Shown here: piece by piece, positions 53,142-60,493 of the stretch
Layout: every line of letters starts with the position of its first letter
How positions within the stretch are numbered: position 1 is the stretch's first letter
Assembly: GCF_030127105.1 (NCBI RefSeq)
Contig: NZ_CP126161.1
Coordinates: 372,001 to 436,000 of the forward strand
DNA: 64,000 bases
Direction of reading: 5' to 3'
Source of the DNA: Haloarcula pelagica
GTDB taxonomy: Archaea; Halobacteriota; Halobacteria; Halobacteriales; Haloarculaceae
Notes under the pieces: model-generated
Database searches by the model: none
Seen by the model: the letters and a program-made list of their open reading frames with translations, nothing else
Told to the model about the DNA's origin: nothing
Translations under genes and position numbers: made by a program

Positions 53142-53816
53142 ATGACCGAGCAGGACGCTGCCGAGGACGAGACGGGACCCGAGAACGGATCGGGTAACGC
53201 GGCCGACATCGACCTCGAAGAGGCCCCTGACGGGGTCGAAACGGACGAGATCGATCTGGAGGATGTCGTCGGCGACACCGACCCCGCCGGCGAACTCGTC
53301 GAACGCGTGTCCGATGCCGACGACGAGGACATCGCCCGCGAACTGGCGGCGTTACGAGCCCGCACGGAGCGGCTGGAGACCGAAACCGAGTCGCTGGCGG
53401 CCGAACGGGACGAACTGGAGTCGAAGCTCAAGCGAAAGCAGGCCGACTTCAAGAACTTCAAAAAGCGGATGGAGAAGCGCCAGGAGGAAGCACAACAGCG
53501 AGCGACCGAGGACCTCGTGACCCGCCTGTTCGACGTTCGGGACAACCTCAAGCGAGCGCTCGAACAGGACGAGGACGCCGACATCCGAGACGGTGTCGAG
53601 GCGACGCTGCGGCAGTTCGACGACGTGCTCGACGCCGAGGGTGTCGAGGTCATCGATCCCGAACCGGGTCAGGAGGTCGATCCGACACAGCATCAGGTAC
53701 TCGCTCGCGTCGAGAGCGACGAAGAAGCCGGCGCGATCGCCGACGTACACCGGCCAGGCTACGAGATGGCAGAGAAGGTGCTGCGTGAGGCGCAGGTTAC
53801 CGTTAGCGAGGAGTAG
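53142..53816 (+). CDS. grpE: GrpE nucleotide exchange factor
   Basis: A 224-residue cochaperone that releases ADP from DnaK. An acidic N-terminal region (1-70) precedes a long coiled coil (ELAALRARTERLETETESLAAERDELESKLKRKQADFKNFKKRMEKR, about 65-112, in heptads) and a C-terminal beta domain with EVDPTQHQVLARVESDE and the ending YEMAEKVLREAQVTVS. A TATA-like TTCTTTTACC (53110-53119) is 23-32 bases upstream. dnaK is next, 265 bases downstream with its own promoter. Confidence 0.95.
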   Translation: MTEQDAAEDETGPENGSGNAADIDLEEAPDGVETDEIDLEDVVGDTDPAGELVERVSDADDEDIARELAALRARTERLETETESLAAERDELESKLKRKQADFKNFKKRMEKRQEEAQQRATEDLVTRLFDVRDNLKRALEQDEDADIRDGVEATLRQFDDVLDAEGVEVIDPEPGQEVDPTQHQVLARVESDEEAGAIADVHRPGYEMAEKVLREAQVTVSEE

Positions 53817-53823
53817 GAGACGG

Positions 53824-53917
53824 TGACCGAAGGGAACCGTCTCCGAACAACCGAGCGGCGACGAACGGAGCCGCGAGGTCGCTGTCGCGGTCTGACCGAA
53901 GGGAACCGTCTCCGAAC
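53824..53917. repeat. 25-bp direct repeat in the grpE-dnaK spacer
   Basis: TGACCGAAGGGAACCGTCTC followed by CGAAC occurs exactly at 53824-53848 and 53893-53917, 69 bases apart. Shorter pieces (GTGACCGAA, CGAACGGAG) recur around them. The two copies sit just after the grpE stop. This kind of short GACCGAA/CGAACGGAG repeat is common after haloarchaeal genes. A third partial copy, GTGACCGAA, is at about 53928. Confidence 0.7.
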
Positions 53918-54081
53918 GGAGCGGGGAGTGACCGAATCGGTCGAATTGCGGTGCGTGTTATACGCTCCGGTCCAGACGCTCCGAATCCTAGAATTCAGGG
54001 CATAGCGGGCTACTCTGTGGGTTTCTCTGGTCGACCCATCTAGCAACTTTTAACCGGCCCAATCCGGTAGGAGTGAGTAAG

Positions 54082-55980
54082 ATGGCGAGCAACAAGATTC
54101 TGGGTATCGACCTCGGGACCACGAACAGCGCGTTCGCGGTCATGGAAGGTGGCGACCCCGAAATCATCGTCAACGCCGAAGGCGAACGGACGACACCCTC
54201 CGTCGTCGCGTTCGACGACGGCGAACGGCTTGTCGGCAAGCCCGCGAAGAACCAGGCAGTCAAGAACCCCGAGCAGACCATCCAGTCGATCAAGCGCCAC
54301 ATGGGCGAGGACGACTACACGGTCACGCTCGACGGCGAGGAGTACACGCCCGAGCAGGTCTCGGCGATGATCCTCCAGAAGATCAAGCGCGACGCCGAGG
54401 AGTATCTCGGCGACGACATCGAGAAGGCGGTCATCACGGTCCCCGCGTACTTCAACGACCGGCAGCGCCAGGCGACCAAGGACGCCGGCGAGATCGCCGG
54501 CTTCGAGGTCGAGCGCATCGTCAACGAGCCCACCGCCGCGGCGATGGCCTACGGGCTCGACGACGAGTCCGACCAGACGGTTCTCGTCTACGACCTCGGT
54601 GGGGGCACCTTCGACGTATCTATTCTGGACCTCGGCGGCGGTGTCTACGAGGTCGTCGCCACGAACGGGGACAACGAACTGGGCGGTGACGACTGGGACC
54701 ACGCGATCATCGACCACCTCGCGGACGAGTTCGAGGCCGAACACGGCATCGATCTCCGCGAGGATCGGCAGGCCCTCCAGCGCCTGACCGAGGCCGCCGA
54801 GGAGGCCAAGATCGAACTCTCCTCGCGCAAGGAGACCCGGATCAACGAGCCGTTCATCGCGACGACCGACGACGGCCCGCTCGACCTGGAGAGCAAACTC
54901 ACTCGCGCGACCTTCGAGTCCCTGACCGAGGACCTCATCCAGCGGACCGTCGGCCCGACGGAGCAGGCCCTCGCCGACGCCGGCTACGACAAGGGCGACA
55001 TCGACGAGGTCATCCTGGTCGGTGGCTCCACGCGGATGCCCCAGGTCCAGGAGCAAGTCGAGGAGATGACCGGGCAGTCCCCGAAGAAGAACGTCAACCC
55101 CGACGAGGCCGTCTCGCTGGGCGCGGCGATCCAGGGCGGCGTCCTCGCGGGCGATGTCGACGACATCGTCCTGCTGGACGTGACGCCGCTGTCGCTCGGT
55201 GTGGAGGTCAAGGGTGGCCTGTTCGAGCGACTCATCGAGAAAAACACCACGATCCCGACCGAGGAGTCGAAGATCTTCACGACCGCCCAGGACAACCAGA
55301 CGCAGGTCCAGATCCGCGTCTTCCAGGGCGAGCGTGAGATCGCCGAGGAGAACGAACTGCTCGGCGCGTTCTCGCTGACCGGCATCCCGCCGGCGCCCGC
55401 GGGCACGCCCCAGATCGAGGTGACGTTCAACATCGACGAGAACGGCATCGTCAACGTCGAAGCCGAGGACAAGGGCTCGGGCAACCGCGAGGACATCACG
55501 ATCGAAGGCGGCGCCGGTCTCTCGGACGAGCAGATCGAGGAGATGCAGGAAGAGGCCGAACAGCACCAGGAAGAGGACCAGCAGCGCCGCGAACGCATCG
55601 AGGCCCGCAACGAGGCCGAGGCGTCGATCCGCCGCGCCGAGACCCTCATCGAGGAGAACGAGGAGGAGATCGACGCGGACCTCCAGAGCGACATCGAGGC
55701 GAAGATCGACGACGTGCAGGAAGTCCTCGAGGACGAGGACGCCACCAAGGAGGACTACGAGGAAGTCACCGAGGAACTCTCCGAGGAACTCCAGGAGATC
55801 GGCAAACAGATGTACGAAGGGCAGGCCCAGCAGGCCGCCGGCGGGGCTGCCGGCGGTGCCGCGGGCGCAGGGCCGGGCGGCGCAGCAGGCCCCGGCGGCG
55901 CCGCAGGCGGCGCGGCCGGGCAGGGCGAGGAGTACGTCGACGCCGACTTCGAGGATGTCGACGACGAAGACGAGAACTGA
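54082..55980 (+). CDS. dnaK: Chaperone DnaK (Hsp70)
   Basis: A 632-residue Hsp70. ATPase signatures: [18 protein letters not shown] (residues 6-23), [16 protein letters not shown] (near 171-186) and [14 protein letters not shown] (near 312-325). The substrate domain has [10 protein letters not shown] and the lid helices; the tail is a Gly/Ala-rich stretch ending EDVDDEDEN, the usual DnaK end. I prefer ATG 54082 over GTG 54073: AGGAG lies 9-13 bases before it. A TATA box CTTTTAACC is at 54047-54055. Confidence 0.97.
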
Positions 55981-56061
55981 ACGGACGGCTCTCCGTCGTC
56001 GACGATAGGCGGACACGACCCGTTTCGGACGAACCGATCACGACGGCACGGTGAGAGCGCC

Positions 56062-57813
56062 TCAGGCCGCTGGGGTCTCGTCCCCGTGAATCTGCTCGCC
56101 GCGGAACAGCCGCCGTGCGATCGTGAACGTCTGTTCTCGCTCCCGCCGCGTGGGGAAGTGCGCGGCCATGTAGCGGGCGGTCGCGATCAGCGGGAGGCGC
56201 CGTTCGGCGTCCGTCTCGGCGAACTCGTTCTGCCGGAAGGCGGCTTCGACGTTCTGGAGCGTGTGGAACCCGGCGTCTTCGCGGAGCAGCCCCTCGCCCA
56301 GCGTGCGCTTTAGCGCGGCTACGTCGCCGCCAGCGTCGAAGTGCTCGCCGACGAGGCGGCCGGCGTCGTTCACGCGGCCCTGTTCGTCGAACGTCGCCAG
56401 GAGGGCGGCGCGGATGTCGGCTGGATCGCGGTCCGACTCGCCGGGCTCGGGCACGGGCGCCGGCGGCGTGTTGAGGAACCGGTCCAGATAGACCGACATC
56501 GCCCCGTCGAAACAGGGGCGGTACGCCTCGACGGCGTCGGTCCGGGCCGCGAGCGCGTGGGCGGCGTTGGCGTAGCTGAACGTGTGGTGGACCGTGTTCC
56601 AGTCGCCGAACTCGTTGCTCGTGGCGAACTGCGCGACGCGGTGCGTGGCTGCCAGCGCGACGGCTCGGGTCAGTTGCTCGGCGGTCGCCCCGTCGCGGAT
56701 CGCGTCCCGGAGCGCGTCGACGATAGCCTCCGGGTCGTCGCCGAGCAGCGTCCCGACGAAGTCCGCTGGGCGCTCCCAGGTCCGTCCCCGACCCGCGGCG
56801 ACGAGGTCCGGCAGTGCGTCGTGGGCGTCGAAACACAGCGTCGCAACGTCGATCGGCTGGCGCCACTGGGACCGTTCCTCGCTGCGAGTCGCGTCGGTGA
56901 ACCGGTCGACGGTCGACGCCAGCACGTCCACCGCGTGGTCCCAGCCGACGTGATCGAGTGTCTCGATCGCTTTGTTCACGAAGTCGAGCGTGTGGCCGGT
57001 GTCGAGATAGAGGTGGTCGGTCGCCGCCGCGAGCAGGACCTCGACGAGGTCCTCGGGCGGCAGGGCGGCCGCGGCGGTCCGGAGACAGCGTTCTGCGCCG
57101 TCGCTGTCGCGGACCTCGCAGGTGTCGCGGAACCACGACTTCAGGCGCGCGTTCGAGAGGTCACCGTTGCCGAGTTCGTGCTGGGGGAACCGTGGCGCCT
57201 CGCCGGCGCAGTCGTCGGCCACCTCGCTGACGCCGACGTACATCGCCCGGAGTTTCTCCTCGTGGTCCAGGTCCTCGGAGAGGTTCGCCATCGCGGCCAG
57301 GATCGTCAGGCCGCTCGACCACCCGCCGGCACGGTACCGCGTACCGAACTCGACGGCCTTCGCCAGCGGCGTCGAGAACCCCTCGCCGAGGTCGTCGAGG
57401 TTGATGATCGCCTTGGCGGTGACCAGGTCCAGGTTCTCCTGCATCCCGTCGACGAGGCGGTTGCGCCAGTGGGTCGCCGGCGGCACGTCCGGTTCGGGGT
57501 CGGGATCGACGTAGACGGTGCCGTCCCGGAGCTCCACGGGGAACGTCTGGACATCGTCGGCCCACGGGTCGAGCGTGTCCCCGCAGGCCAGTTCGAACCG
57601 CGCGTGGTGCCAGTGACAGGTCAGGAGGCCGTCGTCGACGGTCCCCTTCGAGAGGGGAAAGCCCATGTGTGGACACCGGTTGTCGACGGCGTAGACGGTG
57701 CCGTCGTGGTGGAACAGCGCGATCGATCGGCCATCGAACTGGATCAACTGCGGCGAGTCGGCGTCCAGCTCGCCGAGGGGGAGACACTCGCGATAGCGGT
57801 CGTCGGTCGACAT
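56062..57813 (-). CDS. Rieske-type [2Fe-2S] protein fused to a large unassigned helical domain
   Basis: A 583-residue soluble protein. Residues 1-105 form a Rieske ferredoxin domain with the cluster ligands Cys47-Pro-His49 and Cys66-His-Trp-His69, correctly spaced (16 residues between H49 and C66). Residues about 110-583 are mainly helical with repeated His-containing segments (DHLYLDTGHTLDFVNKAIETLDHVGWDHA, NTVHHTFSYANAAHALAARTD, GFHTLQNVEAAFRQ). This reminds me of the questin-oxidase-like (DUF4243) family, from memory only. The Rieske part would feed electrons to the C-terminal domain, as in Rieske oxygenases, but the domain is not the standard one. Located between dnaK and dnaJ on the opposite strand. 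Confidence 0.75.
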   Translation of the reverse strand: MSTDDRYRECLPLGELDADSPQLIQFDGRSIALFHHDGTVYAVDNRCPHMGFPLSKGTVDDGLLTCHWHHARFELACGDTLDPWADDVQTFPVELRDGTVYVDPDPEPDVPPATHWRNRLVDGMQENLDLVTAKAIINLDDLGEGFSTPLAKAVEFGTRYRAGGWSSGLTILAAMANLSEDLDHEEKLRAMYVGVSEVADDCAGEAPRFPQHELGNGDLSNARLKSWFRDTCEVRDSDGAERCLRTAAAALPPEDLVEVLLAAATDHLYLDTGHTLDFVNKAIETLDHVGWDHAVDVLASTVDRFTDATRSEERSQWRQPIDVATLCFDAHDALPDLVAAGRGRTWERPADFVGTLLGDDPEAIVDALRDAIRDGATAEQLTRAVALAATHRVAQFATSNEFGDWNTVHHTFSYANAAHALAARTDAVEAYRPCFDGAMSVYLDRFLNTPPAPVPEPGESDRDPADIRAALLATFDEQGRVNDAGRLVGEHFDAGGDVAALKRTLGEGLLREDAGFHTLQNVEAAFRQNEFAETDAERRLPLIATARYMAAHFPTRREREQTFTIARRLFRGEQIHGDETPAA

Positions 57814-57884
57814 GTGTGAACAGACGGCACAGACTGGCGTAAAGATTTGCTGTCCTCCGTTTCGGGACCGACGACACAGCCGGA

Positions 57885-58400
57885 TCAGCCGCCGTCGGCC
57901 GTCAGCGTGGCCTCGGCGATGGCGACGGACCGCTCCTCGGGCGCACCGAGCAGGCGACCGGTCCAGACGACCGTGACCCTGTCACCGGCTTCGAGATGGA
58001 AGCCGACGGAGGCGTCGCCGTCGAGGTAGTCCCCGTCCCCGTCGCTGTCGACGCGCGGGTCGTCGACGGTAAACGAGTCGCCCTGTTCGACCGGGAGGCC
58101 GGTTTCGTCGGCCCAGACCACGGTCGTCGAGGCGTTCCTGTCGGCGTCCGTCACGACTACCGAGAGCGTCCGGGTGTTGGTCCCGGTCAGCCGGTCGCCG
58201 CCGGCGTGGGTGAGCGTCACCGCCCCGGCGTCGGCGTCGAACGCCGTCTCGACGGTGATCTCGGGCGCCGAGGTCCGGAGGTCCGCGCCGGGGCCGACAG
58301 CCAGGACGGCGAGTCCGGCGGCGGCCAGCACCGCCAGCGTCCAGACCGCCAGCCGCTCGGCAGTGATCCCACCCCGGTCCGCCGACGGTCGCCGTGTCAT
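57885..58400 (-). CDS. Type IV pilin-like membrane-anchored protein
   Basis: A 171-residue protein with one N-terminal membrane segment (about 17-38) and an extracytoplasmic beta domain. The segments VTLTHAGGDRLTGTNTRTLSVVVTD, GDSFTVDDP and LEAGDRVTVVWTGRL match the pattern of the C-terminal domain of archaeal type IV pilins. An Asp/Gly loop DSDGDGDYLDGD (near 121-132) may bind calcium. The N-terminus lacks the usual pilin peptidase site, so it may be a pilin-domain protein that is not processed. Unlike its neighbours it has no chaperone link. Confidence 0.6.
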   Translation of the reverse strand: MTRRPSADRGGITAERLAVWTLAVLAAAGLAVLAVGPGADLRTSAPEITVETAFDADAGAVTLTHAGGDRLTGTNTRTLSVVVTDADRNASTTVVWADETGLPVEQGDSFTVDDPRVDSDGDGDYLDGDASVGFHLEAGDRVTVVWTGRLLGAPEERSVAIAEATLTADGG

Positions 58401-58487
58401 CGTTCGGTACTCCGCAGGCTCCGAAATAAGCCCCGCGGTCCCGAGCGGTGACGTGACACTTAGGTGAGTGGGTCGAGACAGAGGCGT

Positions 58488-59279
58488 ATGGTCGGGGGAG
58501 AACGGACGAGGCGTGCGGTATTGGCGGGCATCGGCGGCCTCACGCTCGCCGGTGTCGCCGAGGCCGTCTCGAACCCGAGAAGCGACGTGGCGTTCGATTG
58601 GCCCTGGGGCGACGACCAAGCGTCGGTCGGACAGACACCGACACCCGAACCACAGGGAACGCCGGTGACTCCTGTCCCGACGGCGGGGACGGCTGAACCG
58701 GGCGGCTGTCGCTCCGCGTTCGAGTCTGGCTTCGAGCGGCCGCTCGACGACCGGTTCCGGTCTTCGGGGTTCAGCGTCGAACGGACGACCGAATACGCCC
58801 GGTCGGGCGAGCACGGCGTCCTGCTGCGTGCCCGCAGCAGCGACTTCGAGTCGAAGCTCCGGTCGCAGGCACGGTTTTGCGGGGACGTGACGGCCGAAGT
58901 GGCGGGCCGGTACGTCGTCGCTGGCGGCGGTGGCGCGAACTTCACGCTCGCGCTCGTCGACCCCGACTCGTTCGCCAAACTGGCCGTAGGACCGATGCAG
59001 TCGGGCAACGCCGTCGCGGTACAGGAGTGGACCGGGCAGGGCGGGTCGGTGACCGGGTGGGCCTCGCTCCCGCGGACCGTCGGGACCGACTGGTCGTCAC
59101 TCGCGCTGTCTGTCTCGGCGGGGACGGTGACCGCAACCGTCGACGGCACGAGCACGACCTACGAGACGACCGACGACTGGACGGACCGGCCCGTTCGGCT
59201 CCAGTTACGGACGAAGACGACGACGACCGGTTCGGACGTTGCCGCGGCGTTCGACGACCTCCGTGTTCGGACGGGGTGA
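58488..59279 (+). CDS. Tat-exported protein, unknown function
   Basis: A 263-residue secreted protein. Tat signal RTRRAVLAGIGGLTLAG at residues 6-22, then a Thr/Pro-rich linker (about 50-80), then a beta-rich domain (about 85-260) with jelly-roll-like spacing (SGEHGVLLRARSSDF, ADRYVV-like and WSSLALSVSAGTVTATVDG strands), as in carbohydrate-binding or concanavalin-like lectin domains. No catalytic residues recognised. An ATG eight codons upstream is possible; ATG 58488 places the twin arginines at normal distance. Resembles in layout the lipoprotein at 5928. Confidence 0.75.
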   Translation: MVGGERTRRAVLAGIGGLTLAGVAEAVSNPRSDVAFDWPWGDDQASVGQTPTPEPQGTPVTPVPTAGTAEPGGCRSAFESGFERPLDDRFRSSGFSVERTTEYARSGEHGVLLRARSSDFESKLRSQARFCGDVTAEVAGRYVVAGGGGANFTLALVDPDSFAKLAVGPMQSGNAVAVQEWTGQGGSVTGWASLPRTVGTDWSSLALSVSAGTVTATVDGTSTTYETTDDWTDRPVRLQLRTKTTTTGSDVAAAFDDLRVRTG

Positions 59280-59338
59280 CCGGCCCGTCCCGGACCCGTT
59301 CTTTTCAAGTACGTCAATCGTATACCCCACAACAACGA

Positions 59339-60493
59339 ATGAGTCAGGATTTCTACGAGATACTGGGCGTCTCCCAGGACGCCTCCGAGGACGAGATCAA
59401 GGAGGCCTATCGGGAGAAAGCCAGGGAGTACCACCCGGATGTCAGCGACGACCCCAACGCCGAGGAGAAGTTCAAGCAGGCCAAGAAGGCAAAGGAGGTG
59501 CTGACCGACCAGGAGAAGCGCCAGATGTACGACCAGATGGGTCACGAGCGCTTCGAGCAGGCCGAGAAACACGGCGGCGCCGGTGGCGGCGCGGGCGGCC
59601 GCGGCGGCATGGGCGGGGACCCGTTCGGCGGTGCCGGCGGGTTCGACATGCAGGACATCTTCGACCAGTTCTTCGGCGGCGGTGGCGGCCGTCGCGGCGG
59701 CGGGAATCGCCCGCGCCAGGGCCAGGACCTCCAGACACGCATGGAGATCGACCTGGAGGAGGCCTACGAGGGCGCGACGAAGCAACTGACCGTCACCCGA
59801 CCGGAGCAGTGTGACGACTGCGACGGGAAGGGTCATCCTCCGGGCACCGACTCACAGACCTGTCCGGAGTGTGACGGCCAGGGACAGACGACCCGCGTCC
59901 AGCAGACGCCGATGGGCCGGGTTCAGCAGACGACGACCTGCCGGCGCTGTGAGGGCGACGGGACGCTGTACGACGAAACGTGTTCGACCTGTGGCGGTAA
60001 CGGCGTCGTCAACAACGAGGCGAACCTGGAGGTCGAGATCCCGCCGGGGATCGCCGACGGGCAGACGATGCGCATGGAGCGGGAAGGTGCGCCGGGCGAG
60101 CGGGGCGGCCCCAACGGCGACCTGCTGATCGAGGTCACCGTCCGGGACCACCCCGACTTCGAGCGCGACGGCGACGACCTCTCGCACAAACACCCCATCT
60201 CGTTCCCGCAGGCGGTGTTCGGGGACACGATCACGGTGCCGACACTGGACGGGGAGGTCGAGGTCGACGTGCCAAGCGGGACCCAGAGCGGCGAGGTGTT
60301 CCGCCTGGAGGGCAAGGGGATGCCGCGCCTGCGCCGGCGCGGGCAGGGCGACCTCTACGTTCAGGTCCAGATCGTCACGCCGGACTCGCTCAACAGCGAG
60401 CAAAAGGAGGCCCTCGAACAGTTCGCCGAGGCCGGCGGCGAGGAAGTCGAGATCGAGGAAGGGTTCTTCGAGAAACTGAAGAACTCGCTGTAG
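59339..60493 (+). CDS. dnaJ: Chaperone DnaJ (Hsp40)
   Basis: A 384-residue type I Hsp40. J domain residues 4-70 with HPD at 32-34; Gly/Phe-rich region about 80-125; zinc domain with four CxxC repeats (C158-C161, C175-C178, C201-C204, C215-C218) followed by the substrate domain and ending at KLKNSL. It stimulates DnaK ATP hydrolysis and delivers substrates. It is separated from dnaK by about 3.4 kb containing three other genes, but is on the same strand. Start ATG 59339 is the first residue of the J domain. Confidence 0.97.
   Translation: MSQDFYEILGVSQDASEDEIKEAYREKAREYHPDVSDDPNAEEKFKQAKKAKEVLTDQEKRQMYDQMGHERFEQAEKHGGAGGGAGGRGGMGGDPFGGAGGFDMQDIFDQFFGGGGGRRGGGNRPRQGQDLQTRMEIDLEEAYEGATKQLTVTRPEQCDDCDGKGHPPGTDSQTCPECDGQGQTTRVQQTPMGRVQQTTTCRRCEGDGTLYDETCSTCGGNGVVNNEANLEVEIPPGIADGQTMRMEREGAPGERGGPNGDLLIEVTVRDHPDFERDGDDLSHKHPISFPQAVFGDTITVPTLDGEVEVDVPSGTQSGEVFRLEGKGMPRLRRRGQGDLYVQVQIVTPDSLNSEQKEALEQFAEAGGEEVEIEEGFFEKLKNSL

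Follow-up and report, generated by a model that had tools for sequence, protein, structure and literature searches.

The protein P0001 of Haloarcula pelagica joins an N-terminal Rieske [2Fe-2S] domain to a large helical domain with the predicted fold of the questin oxidases, and this fusion most likely represents a new type of architecture among Rieske-dependent iron oxygenases. Its gene is found on the minus strand of a window of 64,000 nucleotides, the whole stretch of DNA that was analysed, and its features are as follows (positions in the window).

56062 to 57813, minus strand: whole coding sequence of P0001, from ATG to stop, 583 amino acids plus stop, without an internal stop
57499 to 57813, minus strand: Rieske [2Fe-2S] domain of the ferredoxin type, residues 1-105, assigned by PF00355, PF13806 and fold matches
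57607 to 57675, minus strand: Rieske cluster ligands C47, H49, C66 and H69 (CxH-x16-CxxH), read from the sequence
56065 to 57498, minus strand: C-terminal part, residues 106-583, all-helical in the predicted model and outside the Pfam and NCBIfam families
56140 to 57396, minus strand: stretch aligned with structures of the questin-oxidase fold, residues 140-558 (VIA-align Z 14.3-17.2)
57412 to 57414, minus strand: Lys134, invariant, in a helix that directly precedes the part aligned with questin oxidases
56992 to 56994, minus strand: His274, invariant, candidate metal ligand
56584 to 56586, minus strand: His410, invariant, candidate metal ligand
56263 to 56265, minus strand: His517, invariant, in the motif E-D-x-G-F-H-x-x-Q, candidate metal ligand
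56254 to 56256, minus strand: Q520 of the His517 motif, invariant

The coordinates 56062-57813, proposed by a sequence-only reading that named no strand, are exact for the minus-strand open reading frame. The GC content of the 583-residue gene at codon positions 1, 2 and 3 is 0.73, 0.47 and 0.91. Comparison with six relatives gave dN/dS values of 0.15-0.46 for the Rieske part and 0.15-0.33 for residues 106-583. These measures mark the gene as genuine, with purifying selection acting on each of its two parts. It is present as a single copy in its own genome, where the only other match is a short Rieske-only one.

The identity of the N-terminal domain is clear. Residues 1-105 belong to PF00355 (E 6.8e-16, 58.4 bits against a cut-off of 20.3) and also match PF13806 (E 3.5e-12), and the model of this domain superposes on 2qpz, 5bok and BphA3 with Z about 17 and an rmsd of 1.5-1.8. 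The cluster site, C47-P-H49 followed by C66-H-W-H69, is complete, as the sequence-only reading had proposed, and none of its ligands varies among the 89 homologues, archaeal and bacterial alike.

The remainder of the protein has no such ready assignment. Residues 106-583 matched no Pfam or NCBIfam family, whether in P0001 or in the bacterial relatives that were scanned, and 43 haloarchaeal sequences searched against Pfam only gave the same result. The catalytic families of the Rieske oxygenases were likewise silent on this part (Pfam to E 10; the 43 members to E 1). The sequence-only reading had judged these ~470 residues to be unlike the standard Rieske oxygenase catalytic domain and had suggested a profile search, which returned no clear C-terminal match to a standard Rieske oxygenase or any other known domain; the predicted model, being all-helical, agrees with that judgement. 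The fusion of a Rieske with this helical domain is absent from the descriptions in the family libraries searched, annotated records name the family only generically as a Rieske protein, and among open-access articles no paper was found on such a fusion or on the metal site of the Cercospora questin oxidase BTG13. Carboxymuconolactone decarboxylase was considered and left unsupported (weak Pfam matches in 5 of 43 members, best E 0.011; 2af7, Z 5.5 over 65 residues). An MgsA C-terminal domain was rejected as local helical likeness only (Pfam MgsA_C in 8 of 43 members, best E 0.0026; 2r9g); the likeness to the C-terminus of MgsA-type AAA ATPases falls at 56878-57168, residues about 216-312, and not over the whole domain.

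It is the predicted structure that points to questin oxidases. AlphaFold2 models built with 43 sequences reached a pLDDT of 88.5 for the whole protein and 91.0, with a pTM of 0.91, for residues 106-583 alone. Foldseek was used to rank 1000 PDB chains, with which the C-terminal model was then compared by VIA-align. The six best rows all belonged to questin-oxidase-type proteins, with Z 14.3-17.2 and 326-332 aligned residues, and took in every solved protein of this group: BTG13 (7y3x, Z 17.2, 328 residues, 4.2 Angstrom), 8yxs at Z 16.0 and PaD (8z4q) at Z 14.9. Below the group came 2r9g (Z 10.8 over 95 residues), and all further rows were at 5.5 or less. The structure tool warns that for mostly helical models a best Z near 14 can arise between unrelated proteins; against this, three separate proteins of one family group together, cover most of the domain and stand apart from the other rows. 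Foldseek alone gave a weaker result, with 8yxs as its top match (probability 0.98, E 0.016, TM about 0.35). Going by the predicted model, residues 106-583 share the questin-oxidase fold, and the fold makes common descent with these enzymes likely, though not proven.

The questin-oxidase resemblance suspected by the sequence-only reading thus stands at the level of fold and not at that of sequence family. PF14027, the questin oxidase family (cut-off 27 bits), had no match in P0001, in its C-terminal part or in 43 relatives. Further, hhalign of the family alignments against an alignment of BTG13, 8yxs and PaD detected no significant profile-profile signal, and our own profile alignment to the questin oxidases scored a z of about 1, no better than shuffled columns. 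The reference sequences were taken from PDB search alignments, by way of a composed family-like query and then of the PDB sequences themselves. As the profiles used were shallow, distant kinship could be missed by these comparisons. A PF14027 search of 97 Halobacteria genomes and nine plasmid records also gave no match, but the control genomes were equally silent, so this search says nothing on absence.

Conservation suggests that the helical part carries an active site. In an alignment of 89 sequences (81 haloarchaeal and 8 bacterial), His274, His410 and His517 are invariant, as are the acids D277, E313, D404 and E512 and the residues K134, N280, N400, W317, W405, Q520 and Y548; H552 is kept in 86 sequences, H409 in 85 and H267 in 80. 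The sequence-only reading had remarked on several His-rich helices; the C-terminal part has 16 histidines, the three invariant ones among them. Haloarchaeal and bacterial proteins, about 40-46% identical, share the whole invariant set, which suggests an active site and not a scaffold alone.

The candidate site can be compared with that of BTG13, the iron of which we take to be bound by four histidines and the carboxylated Lys377. His58, His158, His296, His374 and Lys377 (BTG13 numbering) are conserved in all three PDB members. The BTG13 motif DDGH374LAK377 resembles ED-x-GFH517-TLQ520 of the fusion family, a likeness seen by eye and without statistical support. Matched by motif, with no supported alignment behind the pairing, His296 would correspond to His409 or His410, His374 to His517 and Lys377 to Gln520, and no conserved histidine answers to His58. 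If the motifs do correspond, the lysine ligand would be replaced by glutamine and the metal site would be a variant; because by motif His58 lacks a conserved counterpart and Gln520 apparently occupies the position of Lys377, the site is unlikely to be identical to that of BTG13.

The fusion is widespread among Halobacteria, being found in about 140 of 292 sampled genomes (a row count; in three of them the gene is in two stretches), although only 2 of the 16 sampled Haloarcula genomes carry it. The C-terminal part had no match in the genomes sampled from the remainder of the phylum outside Halobacteria. The arrangement had been called unusual in archaea, which fits this absence and does not fit its frequency within Halobacteria; nor is the fusion specific to archaea, as bacteria of several phyla have relatives. 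The bacterial relatives, at 41-46% identity, come from three phyla, and full-length ones reside on plasmids of Nostoc, Aulosira, Gloeothece, Sinorhizobium, Paraburkholderia, Microvirga, Priestia and Metabacillus. When 72,556 plasmid records were queried with the C-terminal parts of two very different members, the same 24 full-length records and one fragment were recovered, and the Rieske part precedes the helical part in 24 of the 24 full-length records. The fusion is therefore obligate among the plasmid records, and with the Rieske part always in front the two domains probably work together. In a tree, one fully supported branch separates the 8 bacterial from the 81 haloarchaeal rows, and the haloarchaeal side broadly tracks families; this topology would fit one transfer or one ancient split, in either direction.

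In three genomes (G085, G078 and G136) the full-length fusion gene is interrupted by a single in-frame stop codon, which may reflect a recent pseudogene or an error in sequencing. A downstream fusion is suspected at locus L008; another, at locus L030, was ruled out since the apparent extension ran past the stop.

No partner gene is kept throughout the fusion family. At 53142-60493 of the window, the fusion gene lies between dnaK (54073-55980) and dnaJ (ending at 60493), on the opposite strand, with grpE upstream, and some relatives show the same placement; among 81 loci, dnaJ is near in 24 and dnaK in 15. Two overlapping opposite-strand open reading frames adjoin the gene (57885-58814, minus strand, and 58464-59279, plus strand); by eye one of the two resembles a pilin-like secreted protein and the other a Tat-exported protein. 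Elsewhere among haloarchaea the fusion gene has SnoaL-like or metallo-hydrolase genes nearby, and a SnoaL-like gene adjoins it in about a dozen loci (L048, L052, L053 and other Natrialbaceae; 7173-7595 in L103). Plasmids of Haladaptatus and Halorussus (L103 and L104) carry the genes for class I ribonucleotide reductase alpha and beta directly downstream. Several bacterial loci have short-chain dehydrogenases nearby, along with alpha/beta hydrolases from more than one subfamily; as these are common gene types, they argue only weakly for a pathway that opens aromatic or quinone rings, such as is known from fungi (PMC9890505).

Taken as a self-contained two-domain oxygenase, which we consider the probable reading with moderate confidence, P0001 would work by its Rieske domain feeding a mononuclear non-heme iron in the questin-oxidase-fold domain. 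The N-terminal domain would take electrons singly from a reductase and its cluster would hand them to the iron, the ligands of which would most likely be His274, His410 and His517 together with a carboxylate or another group. The iron would then activate O2 and use it to oxygenate or cleave a substrate that is aromatic, a quinone or like a hydroquinone. Known questin-oxidase-type enzymes, which with O2 cleave anthraquinol rings after a reductase step (PMC9890505), speak for this reading, whereas the tie to them by predicted fold only and the varying gene neighbours speak against it. What the analysis established is the Rieske site, the predicted fold, the strict conservation, the obligate fusion in the plasmid records and the purifying selection; beyond these, we infer which metal and ligands are involved, how electrons travel, the oxygen chemistry and the substrate class.

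The same two domains could be connected differently. In fungal ring cleavage the quinone is reduced separately before the dioxygenase step, as in the GedF/GedK pair (PMC9890505). P0001 could accordingly be a quinone-cleaving enzyme that merges such a reductase-dioxygenase pair into one chain: the Rieske domain would reduce the quinone to hydroquinone or keep the iron ferrous, and the helical dioxygenase would need no electrons per turnover. The predicted fold of the helical domain, which is that of the fungal dioxygenases, and the short-chain dehydrogenase genes near some bacterial copies speak for this account, but GedF is described as an NADPH-dependent reductase and not an iron-sulphur protein, and we regard this account as unlikely. 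A third account dispenses with oxygen chemistry altogether and makes P0001 a redox or oxygen sensor, or some other non-oxygenase, on the questin-oxidase fold. The helical part has no sequence similarity to the oxygenases of that fold, Gln520 sits at the apparent position of BTG13 Lys377, and dnaK and dnaJ beside the gene in some haloarchaea could hint at stress biology. However, only some members of the family have the chaperone genes as neighbours, P0001 showed no domain for DNA binding or signalling, and the invariant histidines, acids, tryptophans and asparagines along the helical part look catalytic, so that such a role seems more doubtful still. That P0001 is a divergent alpha subunit of a standard Rieske oxygenase is barely credible: the N-terminal placement of the Rieske domain in a longer chain is as expected for one, but the predicted structure, all-helical and not helix-grip, contradicts it, no Rieske-oxygenase catalytic family matched, and the fold matches to Rieske oxygenases cover residues 2-108 only.

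Should the two-domain oxygenase reading be true, Rieske-driven O2 activation would have been put together on more than one occasion, and the questin-oxidase fold would have an electron supply that the solved fungal members do not have. The family concerned is sizeable, given its share of the sampled haloarchaeal genomes and its reach into three bacterial phyla. We see an even chance that the family is a separate class of Rieske-dependent iron oxygenase, the second to be assembled independently, whose catalytic iron sits in a helical domain of the questin-oxidase type and has ligands of its own, where the Rieske oxygenases studied so far use a helix-grip domain.

Each half of P0001 has its closest known systems. 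The Rieske ferredoxins (BphA3, 5bok, NirD) are like the N-terminal domain by sequence and fold, but they are separate small proteins serving another oxygenase or reductase, unlike the fused domain of P0001. The predicted fold of the helical part, over residues about 139-558, is shared with BTG13 (7y3w, 7y3x, 7y3y; Z 16.5-17.4, 326-331 residues, rmsd 4.1-4.4), which is about 10% identical to P0001 and lacks a Rieske domain; Lys134 and Gln520 are invariant residues particular to the fusion family, whereas His58 and Lys377 of BTG13 are seemingly not kept in it. The fold is shared as well with 8yxs, a non-heme iron dioxygenase of Aspergillus brunneoviolaceus, and with the hydroquinone dioxygenase PaD (8z4q, 8z4r), at Z 14.3-16.0 and 9-10% identity, with differing motifs and no Rieske part in the recovered sequences. 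In overall plan P0001 resembles the Rieske non-heme iron oxygenases such as naphthalene dioxygenase and KshA, which also hold a Rieske domain and a mononuclear iron domain, putative in P0001, in one chain. In the known Rieske oxygenases a distance of about 12 Angstrom separates the catalytic iron from a neighbouring subunit's Rieske cluster (PMC12445004), and in KshA this iron sits in a helix-grip fold. The Rieske oxygenases considered here pair the cluster with one type of catalytic domain, whereas the second domain of P0001, all-helical in the predicted model, has a different fold.
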